NCBI GenBank assembly: GCA_017983635.1
Contig: JAGOBA010000018.1
Span: 1 to 64,000 of the forward strand
DNA: 64,000 nucleotides
Reading direction: 5' to 3'
Source of the DNA: Alphaproteobacteria bacterium
GTDB lineage: Bacteria; Pseudomonadota; Alphaproteobacteria; Micropepsales; Micropepsaceae
A program made the translations under genes and the position numbers. Shown here piece after piece: positions 124-50,541 of this stretch. The notes beneath the pieces are model-generated. The model saw nothing but the letters and a program-made list of their open reading frames with translations, was not told the DNA's origin and did not search any database. Every line of letters starts with the position of its first letter. Position 1 is the first letter of the stretch.

Positions 124-952
124 GGCCCGTGACGGCGAACGTGCCGCCGGCTTTCGGGTGTTGGGCGAGTTGTTCGGCGCTTAGGCCGATGCGCGCGGTC
201 GTCACGTAGAGCGTGTCGAGGTTGGCGCCGCCGAACGTGCAGCAGGTGACGTTCGGGGCGGGGATCGCGATCGTTTGAAGCTTCGTGCCGTCGGGGCTGT
301 AGCGGGTGATGCGGCCGGCGCCCCAGTGTGCGCCCCAGACGTTGTCCTCCGCGTCGACGCAAAGCCCGTCGGGCCAGCCGTCGGCTTCGGCGAGTTGTGC
401 GAAAACACGGCGCTGGCCGGGTTGGCCGCGCTCGAGGTCGAAGTCGTAGGCCCAGATCGTGCGCTGGGCACTGTCGACGAAGTACATGCGTTCGCCCTTC
501 GCGTTCCAGCGGATCGCGTTCGTGATCACGAAGCCGGCGTCGAAGCGCGTGACGGTGCGGTCGGGGTCGAGGCGGTAGAGATGGCCGGTCGGTGCCGTCT
601 CCTCGTCGTCCATCGTGCCCGCCCAGAATCTTCCGCGGGCGTCGCAGGCGCCGTCGTTGAAGCGGTTCGTGGGGAGGTTTGCTTCTGGGCTTGCGACGAT
701 CTCAACGCGGCCGTTCCAACTGACGAAGGCGAAGCCCGGCTTGAGCGCGGCGATGAGGCCGCCCCTCTCGCGCAAGGCGACGGCGCCCACGCGATGGTCC
801 AGGGCCATGCTCTGCGTTTTGCGGGTGCGTGCGTCGAGGCGCCAGATCGCAGGGGCTTTGATGTCGACCCAATAGAGTTCGCCGGCGCGCTCGTCCCAGA
901 CCGGGCCTTCGCCCAGCGTGCACTTCGTGTCGGCGATGCATTCGATCCTCAT
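83..952 (-). CDS. SMP-30/gluconolactonase family protein, xylonolactonase-like; C-terminus replaced by IS sequence
   Basis: A 289-residue member of the SMP-30/gluconolactonase/LRE beta-propeller family, which hydrolyses sugar lactones using one divalent metal. Visible signatures are LGEGPVWDE near the start (metal-ligand Glu), NRFNDGACDARGRFWAGTMD in the middle and DGLCVDAEDNVW further on. It resembles Caulobacter XylC in length and wording (APNVT..FGG..L.TLYVTTAR). The start at 952 overlaps the upstream dehydrogenase stop as ATGA, implying translational coupling. The last 12 residues (ERIRFRRNHSLS) are encoded by the IS630 terminus, so the native tail of roughly ten residues is lost. The blades look intact, so activity may survive. 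The exact substrate is inferred from the neighbour. Confidence 0.75.
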   Translation of the reverse strand: MRIECIADTKCTLGEGPVWDERAGELYWVDIKAPAIWRLDARTRKTQSMALDHRVGAVALRERGGLIAALKPGFAFVSWNGRVEIVASPEANLPTNRFNDGACDARGRFWAGTMDDEETAPTGHLYRLDPDRTVTRFDAGFVITNAIRWNAKGERMYFVDSAQRTIWAYDFDLERGQPGQRRVFAQLAEADGWPDGLCVDAEDNVWGAHWGAGRITRYSPDGTKLQTIAIPAPNVTCCTFGGANLDTLYVTTARIGLSAEQLAQHPKAGGTFAVTGLERIRFRRNHSLS

Positions 953-1698
953 GCCCAGCCGCCGTCGATGACGAAGCTTTGCGCGGTGACCATGCGGCTG
1001 TCGTCGGCGGCGAGCCAGAGCGCCATGCGCGCGATGTCGGGCGGATAGAGTTTTTCCTTCAGGCACTGCCTTGCCAGGAGGTCGGCTTCGCCTTCCGGGG
1101 TCAGCCAGAGTTCGATCTGGCGCTCGGTCATGATCCAACCGGGGACGAGGCAGTTGGCGCGGATGCCGTCCGGGCCGACGTCGCGGGCGAGGCCGCGCGT
1201 CAAACCTTCGATCGCCGCCTTGGCAGTGACATAGGCGGGCATGCCGCCGAGCGAGAGGCGCCAGCTGATCGAGCCCATGTTGATGAGCGAGCCGCGTTTG
1301 CGTTCGCGCATCGCGGGCAGCACGGCTTGGGCGGCGAAGAACTGATGGCGCAGGTTTGTCGCCATGCGGTCGTCCCAGTATTCGGGCGTGACTTCTTCGA
1401 TCACGTGGCGGTCGTCGCGGGCGGCGTTGTTGATGAGCGCGAGCGTCGGGCCATTGTCGCGTTCGAAGCGCGCGATCGCGGCGCGGAGGGCTTCGATATT
1501 GCGCAGGTCGCAGGCGACGAACGTTGCGCCGGTCTTTGTGGCGAGCGCCCTGCCCGCTTTCTCGTCGATGTCGACGAAGCCGACGCGCGCGCCTTGCTCG
1601 GCGAAGTGTTCGACGATCGAGGCGCCGATGCCGCTGGCACCGCCGGTGACGATGACGGCTTCGTTCTTGAGGCTGGGGTAGATCGCGAACTGGGTCAT
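949..1698 (-). CDS. SDR family NAD(P)-dependent oxidoreductase, xylose dehydrogenase (XylB)-like
   Basis: A 249-residue short-chain dehydrogenase. The Rossmann motif TGGASGIG is at residues 18-25, NNAARDD lies near 90, and a catalytic Ser (GSISW) is followed by Y-x-x-x-K in AYVTAKAA. The N-terminal AIYPSLK, the NLRH stretch, GSISW and the CLK segment all recall Caulobacter D-xylose 1-dehydrogenase XylB, and the downstream gene is XylC-like. Together they would oxidise an aldose to an aldonate via its lactone. The start ATG at 1698 overlaps the hutI stop by 4 bp. A longer upstream reading is possible but would overlap hutI deeply. The family is secure; the substrate is an inference. Confidence 0.8.
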   Translation of the reverse strand: MTQFAIYPSLKNEAVIVTGGASGIGASIVEHFAEQGARVGFVDIDEKAGRALATKTGATFVACDLRNIEALRAAIARFERDNGPTLALINNAARDDRHVIEEVTPEYWDDRMATNLRHQFFAAQAVLPAMRERKRGSLINMGSISWRLSLGGMPAYVTAKAAIEGLTRGLARDVGPDGIRANCLVPGWIMTERQIELWLTPEGEADLLARQCLKEKLYPPDIARMALWLAADDSRMVTAQSFVIDGGWA

Positions 1699-2939
1699 GA
1701 TGCTGTTTGATTGGCGGCGGCGAGGGCTGCGCTGCGGCCGATGGCGGAGGGGTTGAGGCTGCCGATCCAATAGCTGAGTTCGCAGGGATGATCGAGAGGC
1801 CAGACGGCGTAGTCGGCGGCTTTGCCGACTTCGAGCGTGCCGGTCTCCGTATCCAATCCGAGCGCGCGGGCGGCGTTGCGGGTGGTGCCGGCGAGTGCTT
1901 CCTCTGCCGTGAGGCCGAACAGCGTGCAGGCCATCTGCATCGTGGTGATCAGCGAGACGACCGGCGAAGTGCCCGGGTTGCAGTCGGTCGCGACGGCGAT
2001 GGGCACGCGGGCGCGGCGGAGTGCTTCGACCGGCGGCTTCTTCGTTTCGCGCAAGGTGAAGAATGCGCCCGGAAGCAGCACGGCGACCGTGCCCGCCTTT
2101 GCCATCGCGGCGATCCCGGTGTCGTTCGTGTGCTCCAGGTGATCGGCCGAAATCGCGCCGAACTTCGCCGCGAGGGCGGCGCCGTTCGTGTCGGAGAGTT
2201 GGTCGGCGTGGAGTTTGACCTTGAGCCCCGCGTGCTTGGCGGCGGCGAAGAAGTGTTCGGTCTCGCGCGGGGTGAAGGCAATGCCTTCGCAGAACGCGTC
2301 AACGGCGTCGGCGAGGCCTTCGTTCGCGATCGCTTGCAGGACGCCGCCGCTCATTTCGGCGACGTAGGCGGAGCGTTTGCCCGCGCCTTCGGGCGGGAGC
2401 GCGTGGAGGCCGAGATAGGTGGCGCTGATGCGGGCGTAGGATTCTTCGCCAAGGCGGCGCGCAACGCGGAGCAGACGCAGTTCGGTTTCGAGGTCGAGGC
2501 CGTAACCGGATTTGATCTCGACGGTGGTGACGCCTTCGCTCAAGAGCGCGTTGAAGCGCGGGCGGGCTTGGTCGAGCAGCGCTTCTTCGTCGGCGGCGCG
2601 GGTGGCGCGGACGGTGGACATGATGCCGCCACCGGCTTTGGCGATCGCCTCATAGCTGACCCCGTTGCGGCGTTGTTCGAATTCGGCGGCGCGATTACCG
2701 GCGAAGACGAGATGCGTGTGGCAGTCGATGAGGCCTGGGGTGATCCACTGGTTCTTCGCGTCGATCACGCGGGTGGCGAGCGCATCCGGCTGCCCCGGCA
2801 GATCGCGCATCGGACCTGCGAAGGCGATGCGCCCGCCTTTGTCGGCGAGTGCCGCGTTCTCAATCGCGCCGTACGCGCCCGCCCCCTCGCGCATCGTGGC
2901 GAGGCGGGCGTTGATCCAGAGGTGATCCCATTTCGTCAT
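1695..2939 (-). CDS. hutI: imidazolonepropionase HutI
   Basis: 414 residues, the normal size for HutI. It hydrolyses 4-imidazolone-5-propionate to N-formimino-L-glutamate, the third step of histidine breakdown. Amidohydrolase metal motifs are visible: the HTHLVFAGNRA segment near the N-terminus, the HADQLSD segment, the DHLEHTND stretch and ATDCNPGTSP near the C-terminus. It is transcribed divergently from hutF across a palindrome-rich 297-bp gap and heads a coupled run hutI-dehydrogenase-lactonase (two ATGA overlaps). Finding sugar-oxidation genes coupled to hutI is unusual. Confidence 0.95.
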   Translation of the reverse strand: MTKWDHLWINARLATMREGAGAYGAIENAALADKGGRIAFAGPMRDLPGQPDALATRVIDAKNQWITPGLIDCHTHLVFAGNRAAEFEQRRNGVSYEAIAKAGGGIMSTVRATRAADEEALLDQARPRFNALLSEGVTTVEIKSGYGLDLETELRLLRVARRLGEESYARISATYLGLHALPPEGAGKRSAYVAEMSGGVLQAIANEGLADAVDAFCEGIAFTPRETEHFFAAAKHAGLKVKLHADQLSDTNGAALAAKFGAISADHLEHTNDTGIAAMAKAGTVAVLLPGAFFTLRETKKPPVEALRRARVPIAVATDCNPGTSPVVSLITTMQMACTLFGLTAEEALAGTTRNAARALGLDTETGTLEVGKAADYAVWPLDHPCELSYWIGSLNPSAIGRSAALAAANQTAS

Positions 2940-2941
2940 CG

Positions 2942-3222
2942 CCCCATTGTGTCATGGTCCGCGAAAGCGGGCCACCCGTCCTTTCTTCTGGGATGTGGAG
3001 GCCCAAGGAAAACTACTCACACAATGACACAATGGAACAATGGGGTTGCGCCTCATTCGGGCGCGAAGCGCCCTGACGAGGGTGAAGGCGCGCCTCGCGG
3101 CGCGGTTGCTCCGCCATTGTTTCATTGTGTCATTGCGTGAGTCCTTCTTGCGGCGGCACCGCACGCACAATGTTTAAGGAAGTCGTGGGTGGCCCGCTTG
3201 CGCGGACCATGACACAGTGGGG
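2942..3222. repeat. nested inverted repeat filling the hutI-hutF divergent gap
   Basis: Outer arms of 36 nt (2942-2977 and 3187-3222) are reverse complements with two differences; the core read on one arm is GGTCCGCGAAAGCGGGCC. A second pair lies inside them: 3018-3042, with ACAATGACACAATGG, mirrors 3114-3139. A short hairpin (GGGCGCGAAGCGCCC) and a GGCGCGCCTCGCGGCGCG stretch occupy the centre. The whole 281 bp could fold into one long cruciform. It occupies most of the space where divergent hut promoters should be. Whether it is a mobile palindromic unit or regulatory cannot be told from one copy. Confidence 0.75.
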
Positions 3223-3236
3223 CGTGGAGGTTGCTG

Positions 3237-4589
3237 ATGACTCACTATCACGTTGAACATGCGCTGCTGCCGGACGGTGTGAAGTCGTCGGTTCGGATCG
3301 AGGTTGCCGATGGTTTGATTCGCTCGGTTGCGGTTGGGCCGGCGGCGGACGGAGACGTGGCGATATCGGGGCTCATGTTGCCGGGGATGGCGAACGTGCA
3401 CTCTCATGCGTTTCAGCGGGCGATGGCGGGTCTTGCCGAGTGGGATGCCGGGGGCAAGGATAATTTTTGGAGTTGGCGCGAGGCGATGTATCGCTTTGCG
3501 GAGCGGCTTGATCCGGACGCGCAGCTTGCGGTCGCGCGGTTCCTTTATGTCGAGATGCTGAAGGCCGGTTATACGTCGGTCGGCGAGTTTCACTATTTGC
3601 ACAATCAGCCTGGCGGCGCGGCTTATGCGCCGGCGACCGCGATGGCGGAGGCGATTGCGGCCGCGGCGCAGGAGAGCGGGATCGCGCTGACGTTGCTGCC
3701 GACGCTTTATGTGACCGGTGGTGTCGATGGGCGGGGGTTGAGCGAGCGGCAGAAGCGGTTCGGCAAGACGGTGGCTGAGTTGCTGGCACTGCGCGAGAGG
3801 ATGCGCGGCAAAGCCGGCGTGACGCAGCTTGGGCTGGCGCTGCATTCGCTGCGCGCCGTGCCGCCGGGGTTAATGCGCGAGGCGATTGCGGGGGTTGAGA
3901 AGGATGCACCTATTCACCTGCACACGGCCGAGCAGACTGGCGAGGTGGATGAAGCGATCGCGAGGTTCAAGACGCGGCCGATCGATTATCTGCTGACGCA
4001 GTTTCCGGTCGATCGACGTTGGTGCTTCGTGCACGCGACGCATATGAACACGCGCGAGACGCGCGCTCTCGCCGAAAGCGGCGCGGTGGCGGGGCTGTGC
4101 CCGACGACGGAGGCCAATCTTGGGGACGGGATATTCCGGCTGACGGAATTCTTGGCCGCCGGCGGGCGGATCGCGATCGGCGGCGACAGCCACATCGCCG
4201 TCGATCCGGCAGAGGAGCTAAAGGCGCTCGAGTATTCGCAGCGGTTATTGCACCGGCGGCGCAACGTCTCGGCCAGCACGCGCGAGCCGCACACAGCGGC
4301 CAGGCTCTGGGCGGAGGCCGCGTGCAACGGCGCGGAGGTGCTGGGGTTGAACGCCGGCGAGATCGCGGCGGGCCGGCGCGCCGACTTGGTGGTGGTGGAC
4401 ACGGGGCACGTGTCGCTCACCGGGCGCGATGGTGCGCAGGCGTTGGACAGCTACGTGTTCGTGACGGGGCGCCGCGCGGTCCGAGACGTGATGGTCGCGG
4501 GCGCGTGGATGGTGAAGGACCGCCACCACGCGGGCGAAGAAGCGGCAGCGGCCGGGTATCGGGAAGCGGTGCTGCGGATTCTGGGGTGA
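3237..4589 (+). CDS. hutF: formimidoylglutamate deiminase HutF
   Basis: A 450-residue amidohydrolase. It deiminates N-formimino-L-glutamate to N-formyl-L-glutamate plus ammonia, the fourth step in the two-enzyme HutF/HutG branch. Metal-site motifs are visible: VHSHAFQRAMAGL near residue 57, HLHTAEQ around 230, FVHATHM and GGDSHIA. I place the start at ATG 3237, six bases after GGAGG (3226-3230), rather than at the in-frame TTG at 3231, which would abut the Shine-Dalgarno sequence. It is divergent from hutI. A 33-nt-arm hairpin repeat follows ten bases after the stop and could also end transcription. Confidence 0.95.
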   Translation: MTHYHVEHALLPDGVKSSVRIEVADGLIRSVAVGPAADGDVAISGLMLPGMANVHSHAFQRAMAGLAEWDAGGKDNFWSWREAMYRFAERLDPDAQLAVARFLYVEMLKAGYTSVGEFHYLHNQPGGAAYAPATAMAEAIAAAAQESGIALTLLPTLYVTGGVDGRGLSERQKRFGKTVAELLALRERMRGKAGVTQLGLALHSLRAVPPGLMREAIAGVEKDAPIHLHTAEQTGEVDEAIARFKTRPIDYLLTQFPVDRRWCFVHATHMNTRETRALAESGAVAGLCPTTEANLGDGIFRLTEFLAAGGRIAIGGDSHIAVDPAEELKALEYSQRLLHRRRNVSASTREPHTAARLWAEAACNGAEVLGLNAGEIAAGRRADLVVVDTGHVSLTGRDGAQALDSYVFVTGRRAVRDVMVAGAWMVKDRHHAGEEAAAAGYREAVLRILG

Positions 4590-4598
4590 GGTTCTTCC

Positions 4599-4689
4599 TT
4601 CCTGGGACCGCGGGCATCCTTGCCCGCTCTTGTTCTCTTTCTGCGTTGAAAGAAGAAAGGGCGGGCAAGGATGCCTGCGGTCCCAGGAA
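4599..4689. repeat. family-A palindromic repeat, full copy (convergent hutF/VOC gap)
   Basis: Two 33-nt arms (4599-4631 and 4657-4689) are near-perfect reverse complements around a 25-nt loop. Each contains the signature TGGGACCGCGGGCATCC or its partner. The same unit occurs at 5476-5607, 8333-8420 and 41513-41613, with single arms at 5953-5983 and 50512-50541. Here it fills the gap between two convergent genes, where it could act as a bidirectional stem-loop. Confidence 0.9.
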
Positions 4690-4698
4690 GCAAGAACA

Positions 4699-5466
4699 CT
4701 ACGCAACGATTAGGGTCGGAACACCCAACGTATTGTTCCTCACCGTGAACACGCGCGTGCCGGGTTTGCGGCCGGTTCGGATTTCGCTGATGTCGAAGCC
4801 CTCTGCTTTCAGCCTTGCGTGTGCGGCTTCGGCGTTCGCGACGCGCCAGGAGAGGCCCCAGAGTTTGTCGGGGGCGTCGGAGGGTTCTTCCGCCAGATTG
4901 TGCACGACTTCGACGATGAGGTGGCCGGCGCGGAAGAACATCAGACGTGCGCCCCACTTCGGTTCCGTGCGGTCGAGACGCATGTCGAGGCCGAGCCTCG
5001 CGCCGTAGAGCGCGGCGGCGCGGTTCGGGTGCGTGGTGCGGATAACGAGGTGGTCGAGGCCGTTGATGGCGCCCTCGCCTGCGTTGCTTGGGCGTGACGG
5101 CGGGCTTGCATATTCGATGAGCGAGATCGGCACGCCGAACGTCGCGGCGACGTCGAGGTCGATGTGGCGGCCTTCGCGCAGGCCGGTTGCATCCGTCTCG
5201 GCGAAGGCGACCGGTGCGCCGGGTTTTAGCGCGCGGCGCTCGCAGACGCGGAGGGCTTGGTCGAGGTTCTCGACGCTAAAGGCGAGACCGGCGAGACCCT
5301 CGCTGCCGTCCTCGGCGAGCGCGAGGTCGAGCGATGTGTTGGCGAGGTGCACGGTGGCGCTCTCTTCGCCAACTGTTAGCGCGCCGCCGAGCAAGCGCTC
5401 CATCGCGGTGGCCGCCGTCGCGATGTCGGCGGTAGTGAGTTTGATGCTGTCGAGGGCGGTGATCAT
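4699..5466 (-). CDS. VOC (glyoxalase/dioxygenase fold) family protein
   Basis: 255 residues with two VOC halves. The first (about 3-110) begins ALDSIKLTTADI and the second (about 137-250) begins INGLDHLVIRT. LDH and LIVEVVHN in the second half offer a plausible His and Glu for metal binding, while the first half has drifted from the metal-site pattern. Family members include glyoxalases, extradiol dioxygenases and 4-hydroxyphenylpyruvate dioxygenase-like proteins, and the sequence alone does not choose among them. It faces hutF tail to tail and sits between hut genes on the hutUHG strand. A hut-related role is possible but unsupported. There is a family-A palindrome on either side. Confidence 0.75.
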   Translation of the reverse strand: MITALDSIKLTTADIATAATAMERLLGGALTVGEESATVHLANTSLDLALAEDGSEGLAGLAFSVENLDQALRVCERRALKPGAPVAFAETDATGLREGRHIDLDVAATFGVPISLIEYASPPSRPSNAGEGAINGLDHLVIRTTHPNRAAALYGARLGLDMRLDRTEPKWGARLMFFRAGHLIVEVVHNLAEEPSDAPDKLWGLSWRVANAEAAHARLKAEGFDISEIRTGRKPGTRVFTVRNNTLGVPTLIVA

Positions 5467-5475
5467 GCGCTTCTT

Positions 5476-5607
5476 GTCTGGGACCGCAGGCGTCCCGCCC
5501 GCTCTTTACAACATCTCTCGCGTTGGTGCCTTGGAGATTTTTGGAAGGGCGGGCGGGACCCACCTTCGCCCAAGGCTTCGGTGGGCGCCGCGCCCGCGGT
5601 CCCAGAC
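5476..5607. repeat. family-A palindromic repeat, right arm interrupted by a second palindrome
   Basis: The left arm 5476-5506 is typical of family A. The matching right arm starts at about 5546 (GGGCGGGCGGGAC) but is broken at 5559. It resumes at about 5592 with GCCCGCGGTCCCAGAC. The roughly 32-bp interruption holds CCACCTTCGCCC and GGCTTCGGTGGGC, itself an inverted repeat. This looks like one REP-type unit inserted into another. Confidence 0.75.
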
Positions 5608-5652
5608 TGCGCTCAGGCGCGACAAGATTTCCATTGCGTTCGCATCTCGTTT

Positions 5653-5667
5653 GTTCTATTTTTGTTC
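5653..5667. promoter_or_regulatory. candidate LexA (SOS) box GTTC-N7-GTTC
   Basis: GTTC at 5653-5656 and GTTC at 5664-5667 are separated by seven T/A-rich bases. This fits the direct-repeat LexA operator known from alphaproteobacteria (GTTCN7GTTC, reverse GAACN7GAAC). No SOS-type gene starts nearby. The next minus-strand start is the VOC gene at 5466, about 190 bp away beyond a repeat. A short minus-strand reading frame begins about 25 bp away (MEILSRLSAVWDR) and runs into the repeat. The site may be an orphan left after gene loss, or chance. Confidence 0.4.
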
Positions 5668-5822
5668 TTTCGATGATTGTGAGCGATTTCGTGCGCAGCC
5701 GAGCTGCGTGCGAACCGAGGCGAGTTCCGTCGATGCAAAATTTCACGCACACTTCTTTCAACCGTGTTGCTCAACTTGCGCAGGTTTGCGCCTTGATCCG
5801 TACACGGACTTTCTCTGACCCC

Positions 5823-5895
5823 GTTACAAGTTACGGCGATGTAGCGGCGAAGTTACGGCGTTTTTGGCTGAGAACAGCCCTTGTTACGCTGTTAC
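5823..5895. promoter_or_regulatory. cluster of GTTAC boxes, including an 11-bp direct repeat with 22-bp period
   Basis: GTTAC occurs at 5823, 5830, 5852, 5883 and 5891. Two of these lie in an exact 11-bp direct repeat (AAGTTACGGCG at 5828-5838 and 5850-5860) spaced by 22 bp, two helical turns. The cluster sits in the 520-bp gap between hutG and the VOC gene and looks like an array of protein-binding sites, but no factor can be named. Confidence 0.4.
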
Positions 5896-5952
5896 GGTAT
5901 GAATGATGCTGAATTCAGGCACTTGGCGCCGAATCCGCTTCACGGCCGCAAC

Positions 5953-5983
5953 AAGGGCGGGCGGGACGCCCGCGGTCCCAGAC
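5953..5983. repeat. family-A palindromic repeat, single arm
   Basis: One right-hand arm only (GGGCGGGCGGGACGCCCG within it), ending three bases before the hutG stop. It could pair with the left arm at 5476, about 450 bp away, but is more likely a decayed or half unit. Confidence 0.8.
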
Positions 5984-5986
5984 TGC

Positions 5987-6775
5987 TCAGAGCGCTTCCA
6001 TCGCCGCTGCGATCATCGTGCGGATTGCTGTGGTCACTTTTGCGGCTCGGTCTTCGCGGTAGGTGAAGGGGGGGCCTTCGTCCATGTAGATGGCTTGGGC
6101 CATTTCGAGTTGGATGGCGTTGACGCCTTTCTTGCGGTCGCCGTAGTGCCTGGTGATGTAGCCGCCTTTGAAGCGGGCGTTGAGGACGGCGGTGAAGCCG
6201 GTCGACTGCGCCGCGGCCAAGGTCGCGTCGGCGATGTCCTTGTCGCAGGCTTTGTTGTCGAACGTGCCGAGGTTCAGGTCGGGCAAGCGGCCTTCGAACA
6301 GCGACGGCAAGACGCTTTCGATCGAGTGCGCGTCCCACACGATGACGCTGCCGTGGACCGCCTTCATGCGCGAGACCTCTTGCGCAAGGGCGTCGTGGTA
6401 GGGCTGCCAATAATTGCGGCGGGCGACGATCTCTTCCGCGGTCGGCGCGGCCCCGTCGCGGTAGAGCGGTTCGCCCTTGAACGTGTCCATAGGCACGAGG
6501 CCGGTTTTCTTTTGGCCCTTGTAGAGTTCCTGATCGTCGGGGGGGCGGTTCAGATCGACGACATAGCGCGAGTGCGTGGCCTCGATGCGGCTGGCGCCGA
6601 GCGCGTCCAAGAACGGATAGAGCTTCGGCACGTGCCAGTCCGTATCAGGGACAGTTTGGGCGAGCGGCGTCAGGCGCGCCGCGATCTCCGGCGGGATATA
6701 CGTGCCCGAGTGCGGAAAGCTGACGAGCAGCGGGGCGCCGCCCCTTGTCAGGCGAAAGGTCGGGGGTGCGCTCAT
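5987..6775 (-). CDS. hutG: N-formylglutamate deformylase HutG
   Basis: A 262-residue N-formylglutamate amidohydrolase. It splits N-formyl-L-glutamate to glutamate and formate, the last step of the HutF/HutG route. Signatures are [14 protein letters not shown] near residue 18, [12 protein letters not shown] around 45, [14 protein letters not shown] and, later, [14 protein letters not shown]. These supply the conserved His/Asp/Glu residues of the FGase family. The ATG at 6775 overlaps the hutH stop (ATGA), so hutG is translationally coupled to hutH and is the last hut gene of the hutU-hutH-hutG transcript. Confidence 0.95.
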
Positions 6776-8307
6776 GTGCCGGACGGGAGATGGATATGGC
6801 CGTCGACCGTCGCGCGATAGCGTCCGCTGTCGACCAGCGCGCGCGCCGCCGCGATGTCGGGCGCGAAGAAGCGGTCCTTGTCGTAGGGCGCCACCACTTC
6901 GCGGATCGCGGCGAGTTCGGCTTCGAGCACCTTCGACGACTTCAGCGGGCGCCGGAATTCGATGCCCTGGGCGGCGGCAAGGAGTTCGATCGCGATGATC
7001 CCGCTCGAATTCGCGTGCATGTCGGACAGGCGGCGGGCGGCGAAGGTGGCCATCGAGACGTGGTCTTCCTGGTTGGCGGAGGTGGGCAGCGAATCCACGC
7101 TGGCCGGATGGGCGAGCGATTTGTTTTCGGAGGCGAGTGCCGCCGCGGTCACGTGCGCGATCATGAAGCCGGAGTTCAGGCCGCCGTCTTTCACGAGGAA
7201 GGCCGGCAGGCCCGCGGTCAGGTTCTTATCGATCAGAAGCGCGATGCGGCGTTCGGCGAGCGCGCCGATCTCGGCGAGCGCGAGCGCCAAGTGATCGGCG
7301 GCGAGCGCCACCGGTTCGGCGTGGAAGTTGCCGCCGGAGAGAATGTCGCCTTCCTTGGCGAAGACGAGCGGGTTGTCGCTGACCGCGTTCGCCTCGATCT
7401 CAAGCGTCGCGGCCGCGTGGCGCAACGCGTCGAGGCAGGCGCCCATGACCTGCGGCTGGCAGCGGATCGAGTACGGGTCCTGCACGCGGTCGTCGCCGAC
7501 TTCGTGGCTCAAGCGGATGTCGCTGCCTTGCATCAGCGAGCGCAACGCGGCGGCCGCGTCGGTTTGGCCTTGGTGGCCGCGAACCGCGTGGATGCGCGGA
7601 TCGAACGGCGTATCGGAGCCCTTGATCGCGTCGGTCGTGAGTGCGCCCGAGACAAGGGCCGCGGAGAAGATGTTCTCCGCCGCGAACAGGCCTTGCAGCG
7701 CAAGTGCGGTCGAGACCTGCGTGCCGTTGATGAGGGCGAGGCCTTCTTTCGCCTCCAACGTCAACGGCTCAAGCCCGGCGCGTTGCAGTGCGTCGGCGGC
7801 GTTCATTTCGTAGCCGCGGTATTTGACCTTGCCCACGCCGATGAGTGCGCATGCAAGGTGGGCCAGCGGCGCGAGGTCGCCGGAGGCGCCGACAGAGCCC
7901 TTCACCGGGATTTGCGGCAGCAGGTCGAAGTCGAGGAAGTTTTTCAAGCGCTCGATCACGCCCCAGCGGACGCCGGAGTAGCCGCGCGCGAGGCCGAGTA
8001 TCTTGAGCGTGAGGATGAGGCGCACGGTCTTGTCGCCCAGCATCTCGCCGGTGCCGGTGGCGTGGCTCAAGACGAGGTTGCGCTGAAGCTCGGCGAGTTT
8101 GTCTTTCGCGATACGCGTCGAGGCCATTTGGCCGAAGCCGGTGTTGATGCCGTAAACGGGCTCGTCTTTGGTGAGGATGCTTTCCACGACCTTACGCGAG
8201 GCGTCGACGCCGGCGCGGGAGGCTGGGTCGAGGGTGAAGGGCTGCTTCTCGCGCGCGATCTTACGGAGCGTGGTGAGCGTGGCGTTGCCGGGGGTCAGCG
8301 TTGTCAA
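6772..8307 (-). CDS. hutH: histidine ammonia-lyase HutH (TTG start)
   Basis: 511 residues. It converts L-histidine to trans-urocanate and ammonia, the first step of the pathway. The MIO-forming Ala-Ser-Gly lies in [17 protein letters not shown], with GINTGFGQ upstream and [14 protein letters not shown] toward the C-terminus. I chose TTG at 8305-8307: an AGGAGG Shine-Dalgarno sequence (8315-8320) lies seven bases upstream and the protein then has family length. A longer ATG reading would translate the palindromic repeat itself (…RDARGPRK…) and is rejected. It follows hutU across a 127-bp gap that carries a family-A hairpin. Confidence 0.95.
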
Positions 8308-8332
8308 GCGCGCACCTCCTGGGAGCGCGTTC

Positions 8333-8420
8333 TTCCTGGGACCGCGGGCATCCCTGCCCGCTCTTTCTTGCAGCATAAAAAGGGAAGAAGAGCGGGCAAG
8401 GATGCCCGCGGTCCCAGGAA
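8333..8420. repeat. family-A palindromic repeat, full copy between hutU and hutH
   Basis: The 33-nt arms 8333-8365 and 8388-8420 differ by a single base, with a 22-nt loop. It lies inside the presumed hutU-hutH-hutG transcript, 25 bases before the hutH start, where it could modulate relative expression or mRNA stability. It is one of six sites of this family in the window. Confidence 0.9.
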
Positions 8421-8434
8421 GGAAGACGTTGCCT

Positions 8435-10111
8435 TCATTTCTTCACCGCTAGCATCGGCAAATCCAACTGGTGCTCCTTCGCGCACGCGACTGCGTCCTC
8501 ATACCCGGCGTCGGCGTGGCGCATGACGCCGGTGGCGGGGTCGTTCCAGAGGACGCGTTCGATGCGCTTGGCCGCTTCCTTCGTGCCGTCGCAGACGACA
8601 ACCATGCCAGCGTGCTGGGAAAAACCCATCCCTACCCCGCCGCCGTGGTGGAGGGAGACCCAGGTGGCGCCGCTGGCACAATTCAAGAGCGCGTTCAGCA
8701 GTGGCCAGTCGGAGACGGCGTCGGTGCCGTCTTTCATGGCTTCGGTTTCGCGGTTCGGGCTGGCGACGGAGCCGGAATCCAGATGATCGCGGCCGATGAC
8801 GATGGGGGCTTTGAGTTCGCCCGAGGCCACCATCTCGTTGAAGGCGAGGCCGAGGCGATGGCGGTCGCCCAAGCCCACCCAGCAGATGCGCGCGGGGAGG
8901 CCCTGGAACTTGATGCGCTTGGCGGCCATGTCGAGCCAGTTGTGCAGGTGGCGGTCGCGCGGGATCAGCTCGCGCACCTTTGCGTCGGTCTTGGCGATGT
9001 CTTCCGGGTCGCCGGAGAGCGCGGCCCATCTGAACGGGCCGACGCCGCGGCAGAACAACGGGCGGATGTAGGCGGGGACGAAGCCCGGGAAGTCGAACGC
9101 GTTGGCGACGCCTTCTTCCTTGGCGACCTGGCGGATGTTGTTGCCATAGTCGAACGTCGCGATGCCGCGCTTGGCAAAGGTCAGCATCGCTTCGACGTGT
9201 TCCTTGATCGAGGCGCGGGCGGCGCGCTCGACCGACTTCGGGTCGGTGCGGATGCGGTCTTGCCATTCGGCGACCGCCCAGCCCTTGGGGCAGTAGCCGT
9301 TGAGGACGTCATGCGCCGAGGTCTGATCGGTGACGAGGTCGGGCTTGGCGCCGCGCTTCACAAGTTCGGGATAGATCTCGGCGGCGTTACCGAGCAGGCC
9401 GACGGAGAGCGGCTTCTTCTCGGCGCAGGATTTCTTGATGAGCGCGAGCGCTTCGTCGAGCGAGGCGGTCCAGGTGTCGAGGTACTTTGTCTCCAGGCGC
9501 TTTTCGATGCTGCTTTGGCGGCACTCGACGGCGAGGATGCTTGCACCGGCCATTGTGGCGGCCAGCGCTTGCGCGCCGCCCATGCCGCCGAGGCCTGCGG
9601 TCAGGATCCATTTGCCGGCGAGATCGCCGCTGTGATGTTTGCGGCCGGCTTCGACGAAGGTCTCATACGTGCCCTGTACGATGCCCTGGCTGCCGATGTA
9701 GATCCACGAGCCCGCCGTCATCTGGCCGTACATCATGAGGCCTTTGCGATCGAGCTCGTTGAAGTGCGCCCACGTCGCCCAATGCGGCACCAGGTTCGAA
9801 TTCGCGATCAGCACGCGTGGTGCGTCAGGGTGGGTACGGAAGACACCGACCGGTTTGCCCGATTGGACGAGCAGCGTTTGGTCGCTCTCAAGCTTGCGCA
9901 GCGAGGCGACGATTGCGTCGAACGAGGCCCAGTCGCGCGCCGCACGGCCGATGCCGCCATAGACAACAAGTTCGTCCGGGTTCTCCGCGACCTCAGGGTC
10001 GAGGTTGTTCATCAACATGCGCAGCGGTGCTTCAGTCAGCCAACTCTTGGCGCTGATTTCGCTCCCGCGGGGACTCTTAACGGCGCGGCTGTTCTTGCGG
10101 CGGTCGATCAT
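8435..10111 (-). CDS. hutU: urocanate hydratase HutU
   Basis: 558 residues, the standard size. It hydrates urocanate to 4-imidazolone-5-propionate with tightly bound NAD+. Conserved runs include [18 protein letters not shown]-type sequence near the N-terminus (here [20 protein letters not shown]), [26 protein letters not shown] (NAD+ binding), [20 protein letters not shown] and [10 protein letters not shown] start at ATG 10111 (MIDRRKNSR), which aligns with the usual N-terminus and has a GGAG about nine bases upstream. An upstream ATG at 10138 is possible. It is first in the minus-strand hut transcript. No hutC-type repressor is in the window. Confidence 0.95.
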
Positions 10112-10602
10112 GGCGGCGCTCCAAAGTGGGGCAGTCATAGCGCGGACCCTGGCGGTTTTGAGAGTGCCGTTTTGGGGCAGTTGGGGAGGAAGACGTTCAG
10201 AAAGCTGCAATCAGCGGTTCGCTCGACCGATTTGCCACCACCAAAGGTCGTAAAACTCGACCACAGGGTGCACCGGCAAGCTAGCGCAATCGTCCGGTGT
10301 CAAGTGAAAAAATTACTAACTTCGGAGCCTCCATTGACTGCCGAATACGCCTGTCGCGGGAAAGGTCCTGTCGGGGTGGCGCCGGACCCGCTGCAGCGCC
10401 CAAAACGCAAAAACGGCTTCTTTACCTAAATATTGTACGTTGCGCCGGTTGAAGGATCGAATGGTTAAGGTGTCACCGCTTTCTGATTGGGCACACACTG
10501 CAACTCAACCGGCGACTGTGAATGGTTACGGTTGATCTGTGCTCATGACGCAACACGGATAACCTAAAGACTGATTCGTGGCCCCTGATTCGCATGATTT
10601 CG
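10112..10602. other. intergenic region upstream of hutU
   Basis: About 490 bp between hutU and the divergent barrel gene's promoter, with no gene I can support. On the minus strand a TTGACA (10298-10303) is present, but nothing like a good -10 follows at the right spacing. The A/T-rich stretch around 10420-10440 is the most open DNA of the gap. The control region of the hutUHG operon probably lies here. Confidence 0.5.
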
Positions 10603-10632
10603 TTGTTCGCAAAACAGAACGCTCGGTATTGT
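10603..10632 (+). promoter_or_regulatory. weak candidate promoter for the barrel protein gene
   Basis: TTGTTC (10603-10608), 18 bases, then TATTGT (10627-10632), about 40 bases before the ATG at 10671. An interrupted palindrome, GTTC-N8-GAAC (10605-10620), overlaps the -35 box and could be an operator. Both hexamers depart from consensus. Confidence 0.3.
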
Positions 10633-10670
10633 TTTTCGCAAGGGTAGCTCCAAAACCAGTTGGGGGTTTC

Positions 10671-41512: not shown

Positions 41513-41613
41513 TTCCTGGGGCCGTGGGCGTCCCGCCCGCTCTTACGAACGTTGCAACACTCGCGAAGTCGACGCGTGGTCAAGAGCGGGCGGGACGCCC
41601 GCGGTCCCAGGAA
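41513..41613. repeat. family-A palindromic repeat, full copy
   Basis: The 32-nt arms 41513-41544 and 41582-41613 pair with few mismatches around a 37-nt loop. The unit lies between the HAD-PlsC fusion gene and the YjbR-like gene, one base after the stop of the former on the minus strand. It lies over 30 kb from the hut copies, showing that the family is dispersed. Confidence 0.9.
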
Positions 41614-48106: not shown

Positions 48107-48424
48107 GGCGTTGAGGCTGAGCGACCAGCTTGTCTATTGCCAGGCCGTCGCCCGGCCATAGGGACAGCTCATTGAAAGTCGATCTGATGTCGGCGCAATC
48201 CAGCGTTTGACGTCGCATTCGCGGACTGTAGCTAACTTCCCAGTTGGACGCAGAGGCGGGACACCGCCGCCGCTCACTGAAGCTATCGCAAGCTTTATCG
48301 CTTGTGGAAACACAGAATTCCGACCATTCACGGCCTTGACGTCGCCTGTCCAACGGTCGCGAATCTGCTGAGAGGTGGGCTCCTGCCGCCTCGGACCCAC
48401 AGGGTTCATTGGAGGCAGCCGCTC
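48107..48424. other. intergenic region between lepA and the TIR-domain gene
   Basis: 318 bp with no gene or RNA I can support. An in-frame extension of the TIR gene back to 48302 exists but does not look like protein (HRIPTIHGLDVACP). Composition and codon pattern change here relative to lepA, which fits the left border of an acquired cassette. No repeat or att-like site is recognised. Confidence 0.5.
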
Positions 48425-49699
48425 ATGAAACCGCCAAAGGTATTTGTCTCATACTCGCATGACTCCCAGGCGCACAGGGACTGGGTCGTGCGCCTCGCTG
48501 CCGACCTCAGATCGAACGGCGTTGAGACAATCCTAGATCAATGGGACCTCTCGCTTGGCCAGGACGTTAGCCTGTTCATGCAGAAAGGAATCGCTGAGAG
48601 CGATCGTGTCCTGCTGGTCTGCACGGAGACGTATGTGCGAAAGGCCGAGGACGGAATTGGAGGCGTGGGATATGAGCGACTGGTCGTGACAGCCGAAGTC
48701 GTGCAGTCCATCGACACGAAGAAATTCATTCCCGTCGTTCGGGGTAATAGCAGCGCGCGCAAGGTGCCATTGTTTCTCGGGCCACGCCTCTACGTCGATT
48801 TTTCGGACGACAAAAACTACGAGACGCGTCTTCAGGAGCTTCTACGCGAGTTGCATGGTGCCGCCGCCAAGGAGAAACCCCCGATAGGACCCAATCCGTT
48901 TTCTGGGCGCGTCGCCGCACTCAGCGCGCCTCGCGTCGTAAGCCGGACTGGTGCGACAGGAACCGGCGCATCGCTTTTGGACAGCGATTGGTTTGCCAAA
49001 GAACTTGTCAACGCAAGGAAGGGCGCCGACGCGATCGGGTTCGCCACCCATATGGAGCTACGCTTTGGTCTGCACGACGCCATCCAAAAGTCGCAGATCG
49101 AACTGTTGGATTCGGTACGCGCGGCCGAGATTCACACCTTCGGCTGGCCCATTGGCGTCACCTTGGAGAACAGAGATGAATACAAACCGCGCCCCTTCGG
49201 TGATGGAGTTAAAGCGGAGATTTCCATAAAGAAGGCATCGCCGGGAGATCGAGAATCCTATGACTACTGGGCTATTGCCCAAAACGGCGATTTCTTCCTG
49301 CTTCAAAGTTTGTTTGAGGATCAGCGGAAGAAGAACGAGGTGTTCTTCAACACGCGAATCGTGCGCGTGACCGAGTCACTTCTGTTCGCAGCAAGGTTGT
49401 ACCGCAACCTTGGTGCACCGGAGGGCGCGCCGCTCAGCATTCGCGTTACCCATCGCGGGTTTGCCGGCCGAACGCTCTCGAGTTCCAACGGCAACCGCCA
49501 GCTCTCCGTGCGAGCAACCTCTAACGAAAACGAATGTCAATCCGAACTGGTTCTAACGCTGAAGGACATCGAGAAATTCCTCGTTGCCGACGTCAAGCGG
49601 TTGACCGCACCGCTGTTCACGCTCTTCGACTTCACCACATTTGCAGACACCGTTTATGAAGACATCGTGCGTCGCTTTGAGCGCGGTGAGGTCACCTAG
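48425..49699 (+). CDS. TIR/SEFIR-domain protein with unrecognised C-terminal domain
   Basis: 424 residues from ATG 48425, with GGAGG about ten bases upstream. Residues 1 to about 145 are a TIR/SEFIR domain: KVFVSYSHDSQAHRDWVVRL, ETILDQWDLSLGQDVSLFMQ, SDRVLLVCTETYV and GGVGYERLVVTAEVV, whose Glu after GY is in the usual place for the catalytic Glu of TIR NADases. After a Pro-rich linker (KEKPPIGPNP) comes a C-terminal domain (about 190-424; YDYWAIAQNGDFFLLQSLFE, NTRIVRVTESLLFAARLYRN) that I do not recognise, possibly a sensor. The next gene, 15 bp on, is a membrane protein. A prokaryotic immune role is inferred. Confidence 0.75.
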   Translation: MKPPKVFVSYSHDSQAHRDWVVRLAADLRSNGVETILDQWDLSLGQDVSLFMQKGIAESDRVLLVCTETYVRKAEDGIGGVGYERLVVTAEVVQSIDTKKFIPVVRGNSSARKVPLFLGPRLYVDFSDDKNYETRLQELLRELHGAAAKEKPPIGPNPFSGRVAALSAPRVVSRTGATGTGASLLDSDWFAKELVNARKGADAIGFATHMELRFGLHDAIQKSQIELLDSVRAAEIHTFGWPIGVTLENRDEYKPRPFGDGVKAEISIKKASPGDRESYDYWAIAQNGDFFLLQSLFEDQRKKNEVFFNTRIVRVTESLLFAARLYRNLGAPEGAPLSIRVTHRGFAGRTLSSSNGNRQLSVRATSNENECQSELVLTLKDIEKFLVADVKRLTAPLFTLFDFTTFADTVYEDIVRRFERGEVT

Positions 49700-49714
49700 A
49701 GGAGCCGACAGCGC

Positions 49715-50416
49715 ATGCTTTCGTATCTGAATGCCAACTCAGGCGCATTGACGGTCATCTTTACAGCGATAGTCACGGTGTCAACGGTGGCATATGCGGT
49801 GCTCACACAACGGCTCGTAAGCGAGACGAAGCAGCTGCGGCGAGCCGAAACCGAACCTGCACTTGTGGTCTATCTCTCACCCAGCGATCGATGGGTAAAT
49901 CTCTTTTACCTGGTGATACACAATCACGGAAAAGGCGTCGCACGTAACATCAAATGGAGTCTCGTCCCCTCGCGCGAAGAACTTACTACGCTCGGCGTTA
50001 AGGCCACATCTCTAGCGCTGCTGGATGGCTTCGCACAGCTCGCGCCCGACCAGCGAGTTCGATCGTTCTTTGGTAGCGTGGCCGAGCTGCTGAAAGATCC
50101 TCCAATGCAAGCCATTCAGATTTCGGTGAGCTACGAGAACGATGCGCGGCAAGTCGCGACAGCGAACTTCCTGCTTGATGTAAACCAGTTTCGTGGAATC
50201 GTGGAGTTGGGCAAAGCAGCAGACGTTCGTATTGCGGAGTCGCTGGAGAAGCTGGAGAGAAATCTGAGGTCCGTTGTTTCGGATGGCAGTATTTCCGTTC
50301 TCGTACAGACACTGACGGAAGCCAAGCATGAGCGCGAAAAATTTGTTGCGGAAGTTCGAGCGATGGCTCAGGCAGAGCGATCACACTCCGAACAAGCTCG
50401 CGAGACCGATACTTAG
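49715..50416 (+). CDS. membrane-anchored partner of the TIR-domain protein, function unknown
   Basis: 233 residues. One N-terminal TM helix (about 10-32, ALTVIFTAIVTVSTVAYAVL) is followed by ETKQLRRAETEPALVVYL, a charged helix entering a beta-sandwich-like domain (NLFYLVIHNHGKGVARNIKW, AIQISVSYENDARQVATANF). A C-terminal coiled coil follows (about 165-230, ESLEKLERNLRSVVS…). Anchored cytoplasmic proteins of this layout are found but not characterised. It starts 15 bp after the TIR gene, with GGAG upstream, so the two form a transcript. It could be the membrane arm of a two-gene system. Confidence 0.7.
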   Translation: MLSYLNANSGALTVIFTAIVTVSTVAYAVLTQRLVSETKQLRRAETEPALVVYLSPSDRWVNLFYLVIHNHGKGVARNIKWSLVPSREELTTLGVKATSLALLDGFAQLAPDQRVRSFFGSVAELLKDPPMQAIQISVSYENDARQVATANFLLDVNQFRGIVELGKAADVRIAESLEKLERNLRSVVSDGSISVLVQTLTEAKHEREKFVAEVRAMAQAERSHSEQARETDT

Positions 50417-50511: not shown

Positions 50512-50541
50512 AAGAGCAGGCGGGACGCCTGCGGTCCCAGG
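50512..50541. repeat. family-A palindromic repeat, single arm (decayed copy)
   Basis: A right-hand arm (GGCGGGACGCCTGCGGTCCC within it). A poor left-arm remnant (CGTCCGCTCTTG) sits near 50459-50470. It marks the right border of the TIR cassette and lies 40 bp before the next gene's stop. Confidence 0.75.

Follow-up and report, generated by a model that had tools for sequence, protein, structure and literature searches.

Two genes on the plus strand, 15 bp apart, make up a cassette within the window, by which we mean the whole 64,000-nucleotide stretch of DNA analyzed here, from an alphaproteobacterium of the family Micropepsaceae (contig JAGOBA010000018.1). The first gene (gene 1) encodes a protein with an N-terminal SEFIR/TIR domain and a C-terminal module, and the second (gene 2) encodes a membrane protein (Table 1). 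Given the short gap and the common strand, the two are probably co-transcribed. The ATG of each gene is preceded by a purine-rich stretch resembling a ribosome-binding site, which for gene 1 is a GGAGG at about position 48410. GC content is 0.54 to 0.58 in the cassette versus 0.59 to 0.69 in its flanks, and gene 1 returned one match in its own genome, at 100%. An earlier interpretation of this DNA made without database searches (here called the sequence-only reading) had described a two-gene layout with this spacing, a shift in composition, and a position next to lepA, all of which we recovered.

Table 1. Features of the cassette and its edges, in window coordinates
Feature	Position	Strand	Basis
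Possible decayed partner of right-edge repeat	48254..48265	+	12 nt, one mismatch
Gene 1, SEFIR-module protein, 424 aa	48425..49699	+	ORF; GGAGG upstream
SEFIR/TIR domain (residues 1-160), putative NADase	48425..48904	+	Pfam, PADLOC bSEFIR, PDB 5y8e, E84
Catalytic-position Glu E84 in GGVGYE	codon 48674-48676	+	63/63 aligned SEFIR domains
C-terminal module (residues 161-424)	48905..49696	+	Relatives, leave-one-out profiles, structure model
Gene 2, membrane protein, 233 aa	49715..50416	+	ORF; hydrophobic segment; phrog matches; relatives L020, L021, weak L053
Dispersed palindrome-like intergenic repeat copy, right edge	50519..50540	+	GGCGGGACGCCTGCGGTCCCAG

The left neighbor of the cassette is lepA, and the other neighbors scanned encode a FecR protein, a polyketide-cyclase-like protein, MarR, and DUF2339. 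No recognizable defense gene was found among these scanned neighbors, which places the cassette outside any obvious defense island. When 7.2 kb of sequence was searched against 10 congeneric genomes, the cassette was absent from all of them; nine carry lepA, and several carry parts of the right-hand flank. In one of these (G093) the site is empty, with 11 bp between the ends of lepA and the right-hand gene, and in three (G094, G087, and G092) other sequence fills the gap after lepA. Since the site after lepA differs between congeners, the cassette is accessory and does not belong to the core genome of the genus. The right-edge repeat pointed out by the sequence-only reading is a real, dispersed intergenic element: GGCGGGACGCCTGCGGTCCCAG is present in five copies in the window against zero expected (positions 5478-5499, 5960-5981, 41516-41610, and 50519-50540) and in many copies in other genomes of the genus. 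Its possible left-edge partner is a weak, short match that could be due to chance. Another genome of the genus has a different insert of ~3.2 kb at this same position after lepA (L142, positions 1733-4936), so the site may be an integration hotspot.

Residues 4 to 140 of gene 1 matched Pfam TIR_2 (1.5e-22) and SEFIR (2.2e-19), both above the gathering score, and gene 1 matched 5y8e, a solved bacterial SEFIR structure (6.9e-22), in agreement with the N-terminal domain that had been proposed. The GGVGYE segment aligns to GGVGTE of 5y8e, and its glutamate, E84, does occupy the catalytic position to which it had been assigned, being kept in all 63 distinct SEFIR domains aligned, most of which came from the 64 loci on viral contigs that a SEFIR alignment had retrieved. 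PADLOC assigned the whole of gene 1 to bSEFIR (4e-71), and residues 1 to 160 alone scored 5.3e-71, so the C-terminal part of the protein adds nothing to this assignment; residues 161 to 424 alone matched no PADLOC family at E ≤ 1. Gene 1 therefore shares with bSEFIR (PDLC03957) a SEFIR/TIR_2 N terminus and the GGVG-Glu motif, whereas the PADLOC model consists of a single protein and gene 1 is followed on its 3' side by a membrane-protein gene. SEFIR is counted among the NAD+-depleting anti-phage domains (PMC12774641), and a SEFIR system is reported to protect Streptococcus thermophilus against specific phages within a narrow range (PMC12322248). Given that its relatives are described as NAD+-depleting anti-phage effectors, we propose gene 1 to be a latent NADase, an assignment by analogy that its family membership makes well grounded.

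Other TIR-based systems were compared, and a direct connection to Thoeris was rejected. The resemblance of the TIR domain to ThsB of Thoeris is weak (0.003), gene 2 has no ThsA match, and no Thoeris partner genes are present. The gene beside gene 1 encodes a 233-residue membrane protein and not an Argonaute, as would be found in SPARTA (TIR-APAZ short pAgo), and the module had no sequence match in PADLOC or the PDB and a weak result in the fold search.

The gene 2 product contains a single strong hydrophobic segment near its N terminus, from residue 12 (Kyte-Doolittle mean of 2.15 over 19 residues), and judged by its sequence it is likely a single-pass membrane protein with a beta domain and a charged, coiled-coil-like C-terminal helix. 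Of the architecture proposed earlier, the transmembrane segment thus stands, while the beta domain and coiled coil are plausible from sequence and the single-sequence structure model (pLDDT of 37) is too poor to support a reading of the fold. Searches of Pfam, NCBIfam, and the PDB with gene 2 gave no significant match, but two phage-protein families of no assigned function did match: phrog_11802 (2.8e-12, over residues 6 to 192, covering the transmembrane and beta region) and phrog_9607 (1.8e-9). The gene was not found in 95 other genomes of its order, and a phrog profile located its family in 3 of 220 genomes of the class. Of two alphaproteobacterial relatives, one, which has an in-frame stop, is separated by 14 bp from the MmeI-type methyltransferase gene that directly precedes it (L020), and the other is the third gene of an operon, directly after a HigB/HigA-like pair (L021). 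A third, weakly matching relative (6.1e-5) is found some 450 bp downstream from a different SEFIR gene (L053). This distribution suggests that gene 2 encodes an accessory protein accompanying several kinds of conflict system. Since its relatives mostly adjoin HigBA and MmeI-type genes, the co-occurrence expected of a dedicated pair was in part contradicted, with L053 as one weak SEFIR neighbor on the other side, and neither a conserved unit of genes 1 and 2 nor a general co-occurrence of gene 2 with SEFIR is established.

These observations bear on a rival explanation, in which gene 1 is an ordinary single-gene bSEFIR with a differing C terminus and gene 2 is an unrelated passenger in an acquired islet. 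Such an arrangement would agree with the one-protein PADLOC model, with the association of gene 2 relatives mainly with other systems, and with the wide variation of C termini among SEFIR proteins: five other loci (L003, L004, L006, L009, and L010) have only the SEFIR domain in common with gene 1. Against it, 15 bp separate the two same-strand genes, which are probably co-transcribed; relatives of gene 2 come directly after conflict modules; and a gene-2-like neighbor is present at one SEFIR locus. Genes with an N-terminal transmembrane segment followed SEFIR genes in 4 of 18 loci compared with 20 of 317 control pairs, a weak difference from a small sample in which one of the four may be false; we consider it suggestive. 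On balance, we regard the passenger explanation as rather unlikely, though the strongest of those that compete with ours. Because the C termini of the other SEFIR proteins are unrelated, only its position links the module of gene 1 to SEFIR activation. No second protein combining SEFIR and the module was found among the loci examined, in either direction, which makes the architecture of gene 1 a single case so far; it could be uncommon or a fusion that arose once.

The C-terminal part of gene 1, which the sequence-only reading could not assign, indeed matched no Pfam or PADLOC family over its 264 residues (residues 161 to 424). It nevertheless has clear relatives. Alignments of gene 1 with these show a shared signature (GWP, D-[YF]-W, ED, IxRxxExLL, GxxGRxL, and FDF), with conservation best from about residue 220. 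We built leave-one-out profiles from which gene 1 and L008 (see below) were excluded and searched the complete ORF set of the window and loci, scaling E values to 100,000 sequences. Gene 1 was recovered at 8.5e-32 by the profile of all other module proteins, at 1.1e-32 by that of AlbA_2 forms only, and at 1.6e-17 by that of helix-turn-helix (HTH) forms only; weak scores were confined to fragmentary relatives. An alignment of seven rows contained no conserved stretch to scan, and scans succeeded once it was split by architecture. A profile of seven relatives found the module in 11 of 385 alphaproteobacterial genomes, and viral contigs yielded no match to single-protein queries, whether gene 1, the module alone, gene 2, or the L021 relative.

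The module was folded by itself, with seven relatives, because gene 1 aligned poorly at full length with rows holding only SEFIR or only the module; the resulting model (mean pLDDT of 77.6, pTM of 0.80) predicts several antiparallel strands, a helix of ~20 residues, and C-terminal helices. A Foldseek search with this model returned no PDB match below 1e-3 and one weak viral match; TBP chains headed the PDB list without being significant. In VIA-align, the best score was for AdoMet decarboxylase (Z of 7.4), with plant PYL receptors at ~6, but values of this kind are common among unrelated folds, so we make no claim about the function or fold of the module from them.

The module occurs in other proteins in several contexts. 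In an Omnitrophica contig (L008), it is preceded by a TIR-like domain with a match to a PADLOC TIR effector, and this copy is 51% identical to that of gene 1 over 153 residues. Directly upstream of this TIR-like plus module gene (L008, positions 3241-4512) are two genes for small single-pass membrane proteins, which are reminiscent of gene 2 and not homologous to it by the profile used. In a second form, the module follows an AlbA_2-type domain; proteins of this form are encoded on plasmids of Haloarcula, Halobaculum, Deinococcus, Asticcacaulis, and Sinorhizobium and by several alphaproteobacterial genomes (assignment checked with Pfam for L013, L014, L016, and L017). These Schlafen AlbA_2 (PF04326) proteins, of the phrog_38563 family, occur on plasmids and phage-like contigs and have the module in common with gene 1, with AlbA_2 at the N terminus where gene 1 has SEFIR. 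In one phage-like setting, an AlbA_2-type module gene lies on the opposite strand among phage tail genes (Phage_GPD and YQBQ; L045), and in another it follows DUF5677 and FRG-domain genes near a phage portal gene (L047/L048). Positions of this kind are typical of phage cargo and would be consistent with an anti-phage or exclusion role. The run of DUF5677, FRG, and AlbA_2-type module genes at L047 (positions 697-3951) resembles phage cargo and is possibly a defense hotspot. By our reading of the sequence, a resolvase-like recombinase is encoded close by in L049 and L051.

The other common form among alphaproteobacterial genomes with the module joins it to an HTH domain. In all 11 loci of this form with a readable upstream gene (L024, L030, L032, L033, L034, L036, L039, L040, L041, L043, and L046), the gene directly upstream of the HTH-module gene encodes HipA, as illustrated by the Pfam HipA_C match of the upstream gene in L046 (2.7e-41). 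These HipA operons, which include examples on Sinorhizobium pSymA and Azospirillum p3, carry the same C-terminal module as gene 1, but their output is an HTH protein with a HipA kinase, and that of gene 1 is SEFIR. In five of them (L039, L040, L041, L043, and L046) the toxin gene comes first and is followed by an HTH-module protein of ~330 residues; proteins of this size, including that of Sinorhizobium meliloti pSymA, are much longer than classical HipB. Locus L024 (L015; positions 4787-10653) differs in that HipA is followed by one ORF of 1573 residues that carries an HTH domain and the module N-terminal to a region matching PD-Lambda-4_A (8.5e-105), the only such fusion met. Judged by its sequence, this ORF would be a toxin-antitoxin regulator fused to a known anti-phage component. 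The module lies outside the PD-Lambda-4_A profile, and gene 1 has no PD-Lambda-4_A region.

We considered whether the module might have a structural rather than a sensing role, as a nucleic-acid-binding or oligomerization domain. Its frequent partners HTH and AlbA_2 are annotated as DNA-binding, and the TBP chains at the head of the Foldseek list point, if not significantly, in the same direction. The SEFIR and TIR-like partners have no need of DNA binding, however, and the structural similarities of the module are within background, and we therefore consider this role unlikely. A toxin-antitoxin-like unit that stabilizes mobile DNA rather than defending against phages, with gene 1 as toxin and gene 2 as its membrane neutralizer, would accord with the regular occurrence of the module in HipA operons and with the gene 2 relative that is third in a HigBA-like operon, but it is improbable given that HipA operons carry the module on the HTH protein (the putative antitoxin) and not on the toxin, that the HigBA case already has an antitoxin-like HTH gene, and that SEFIR systems are modeled as single genes.

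We lean slightly toward regarding the cassette as a bSEFIR-type abortive-infection module that was acquired and whose trigger domain has been exchanged, its defense function being proposed from its relatives. It is most likely a variant of bSEFIR and not a wholly new system. The earlier description of the cassette as a candidate undescribed defense system thus does not hold for the effector, which belongs to a known family, but it may hold for the C-terminal module: neither this domain nor the fact that toxin-antitoxin, Schlafen, and TIR proteins share it appears to have been described in the literature and databases searched. In the mechanism that we propose, the SEFIR/TIR domain of gene 1 would be kept inactive at rest, and the C-terminal module would perceive a cue linked to infection or stress. 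The SEFIR domains would then assemble and destroy NAD+, stopping the cell ahead of phage release. Gene 2, whose role is the least certain part of this scheme, would act as a membrane-anchored accessory protein, most likely holding gene 1 in place at the inner membrane or gating it there.

A sensing role for the module is argued from its recurrence beside unrelated output domains, as has been done for the Panacea (PanA) domain, which is common to many pairs involved in toxin-antitoxin function or phage defense and which its authors propose to be a sensor (PMC10440598). Panacea is a precedent for how the module might work; homology between the two is unsupported, as the module matched no Pfam family. 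The occurrence of the module with four other kinds of toxin or immunity protein suggests an uncharacterized, swappable trigger or sensor part, and other conflict systems may use it as a portable sensing or regulatory domain with other outputs. A broader proposal, that it is an unnamed, portable infection or stress sensor shared by toxin-antitoxin and anti-phage systems, with gene 2 as a portable membrane partner, is one that we advance tentatively, as possible but short of probable. It would span bacteria, haloarchaea, and prophages and at least four outputs (SEFIR/TIR NADase, Schlafen AlbA_2, HipA operons, and PD-Lambda-4A-like), and no paper in the literature searched links HipA, Schlafen, and SEFIR to one another and to a sensor domain. 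If correct, it would provide a second domain, beside Panacea, that links toxin-antitoxin and anti-phage networks. If the module is indeed a trigger, a single ligand-finding experiment would inform the activation of several otherwise unrelated families, including the HipA operons of symbiotic rhizobia and phage-borne Schlafen-type proteins. SEFIR systems would then combine a constant NADase effector with exchangeable trigger domains, making their specificity testable in laboratory strains. The order of domains also varies among SEFIR proteins: in L057 and L060, the SEFIR domain follows an unassigned N-terminal domain of ~150 residues.
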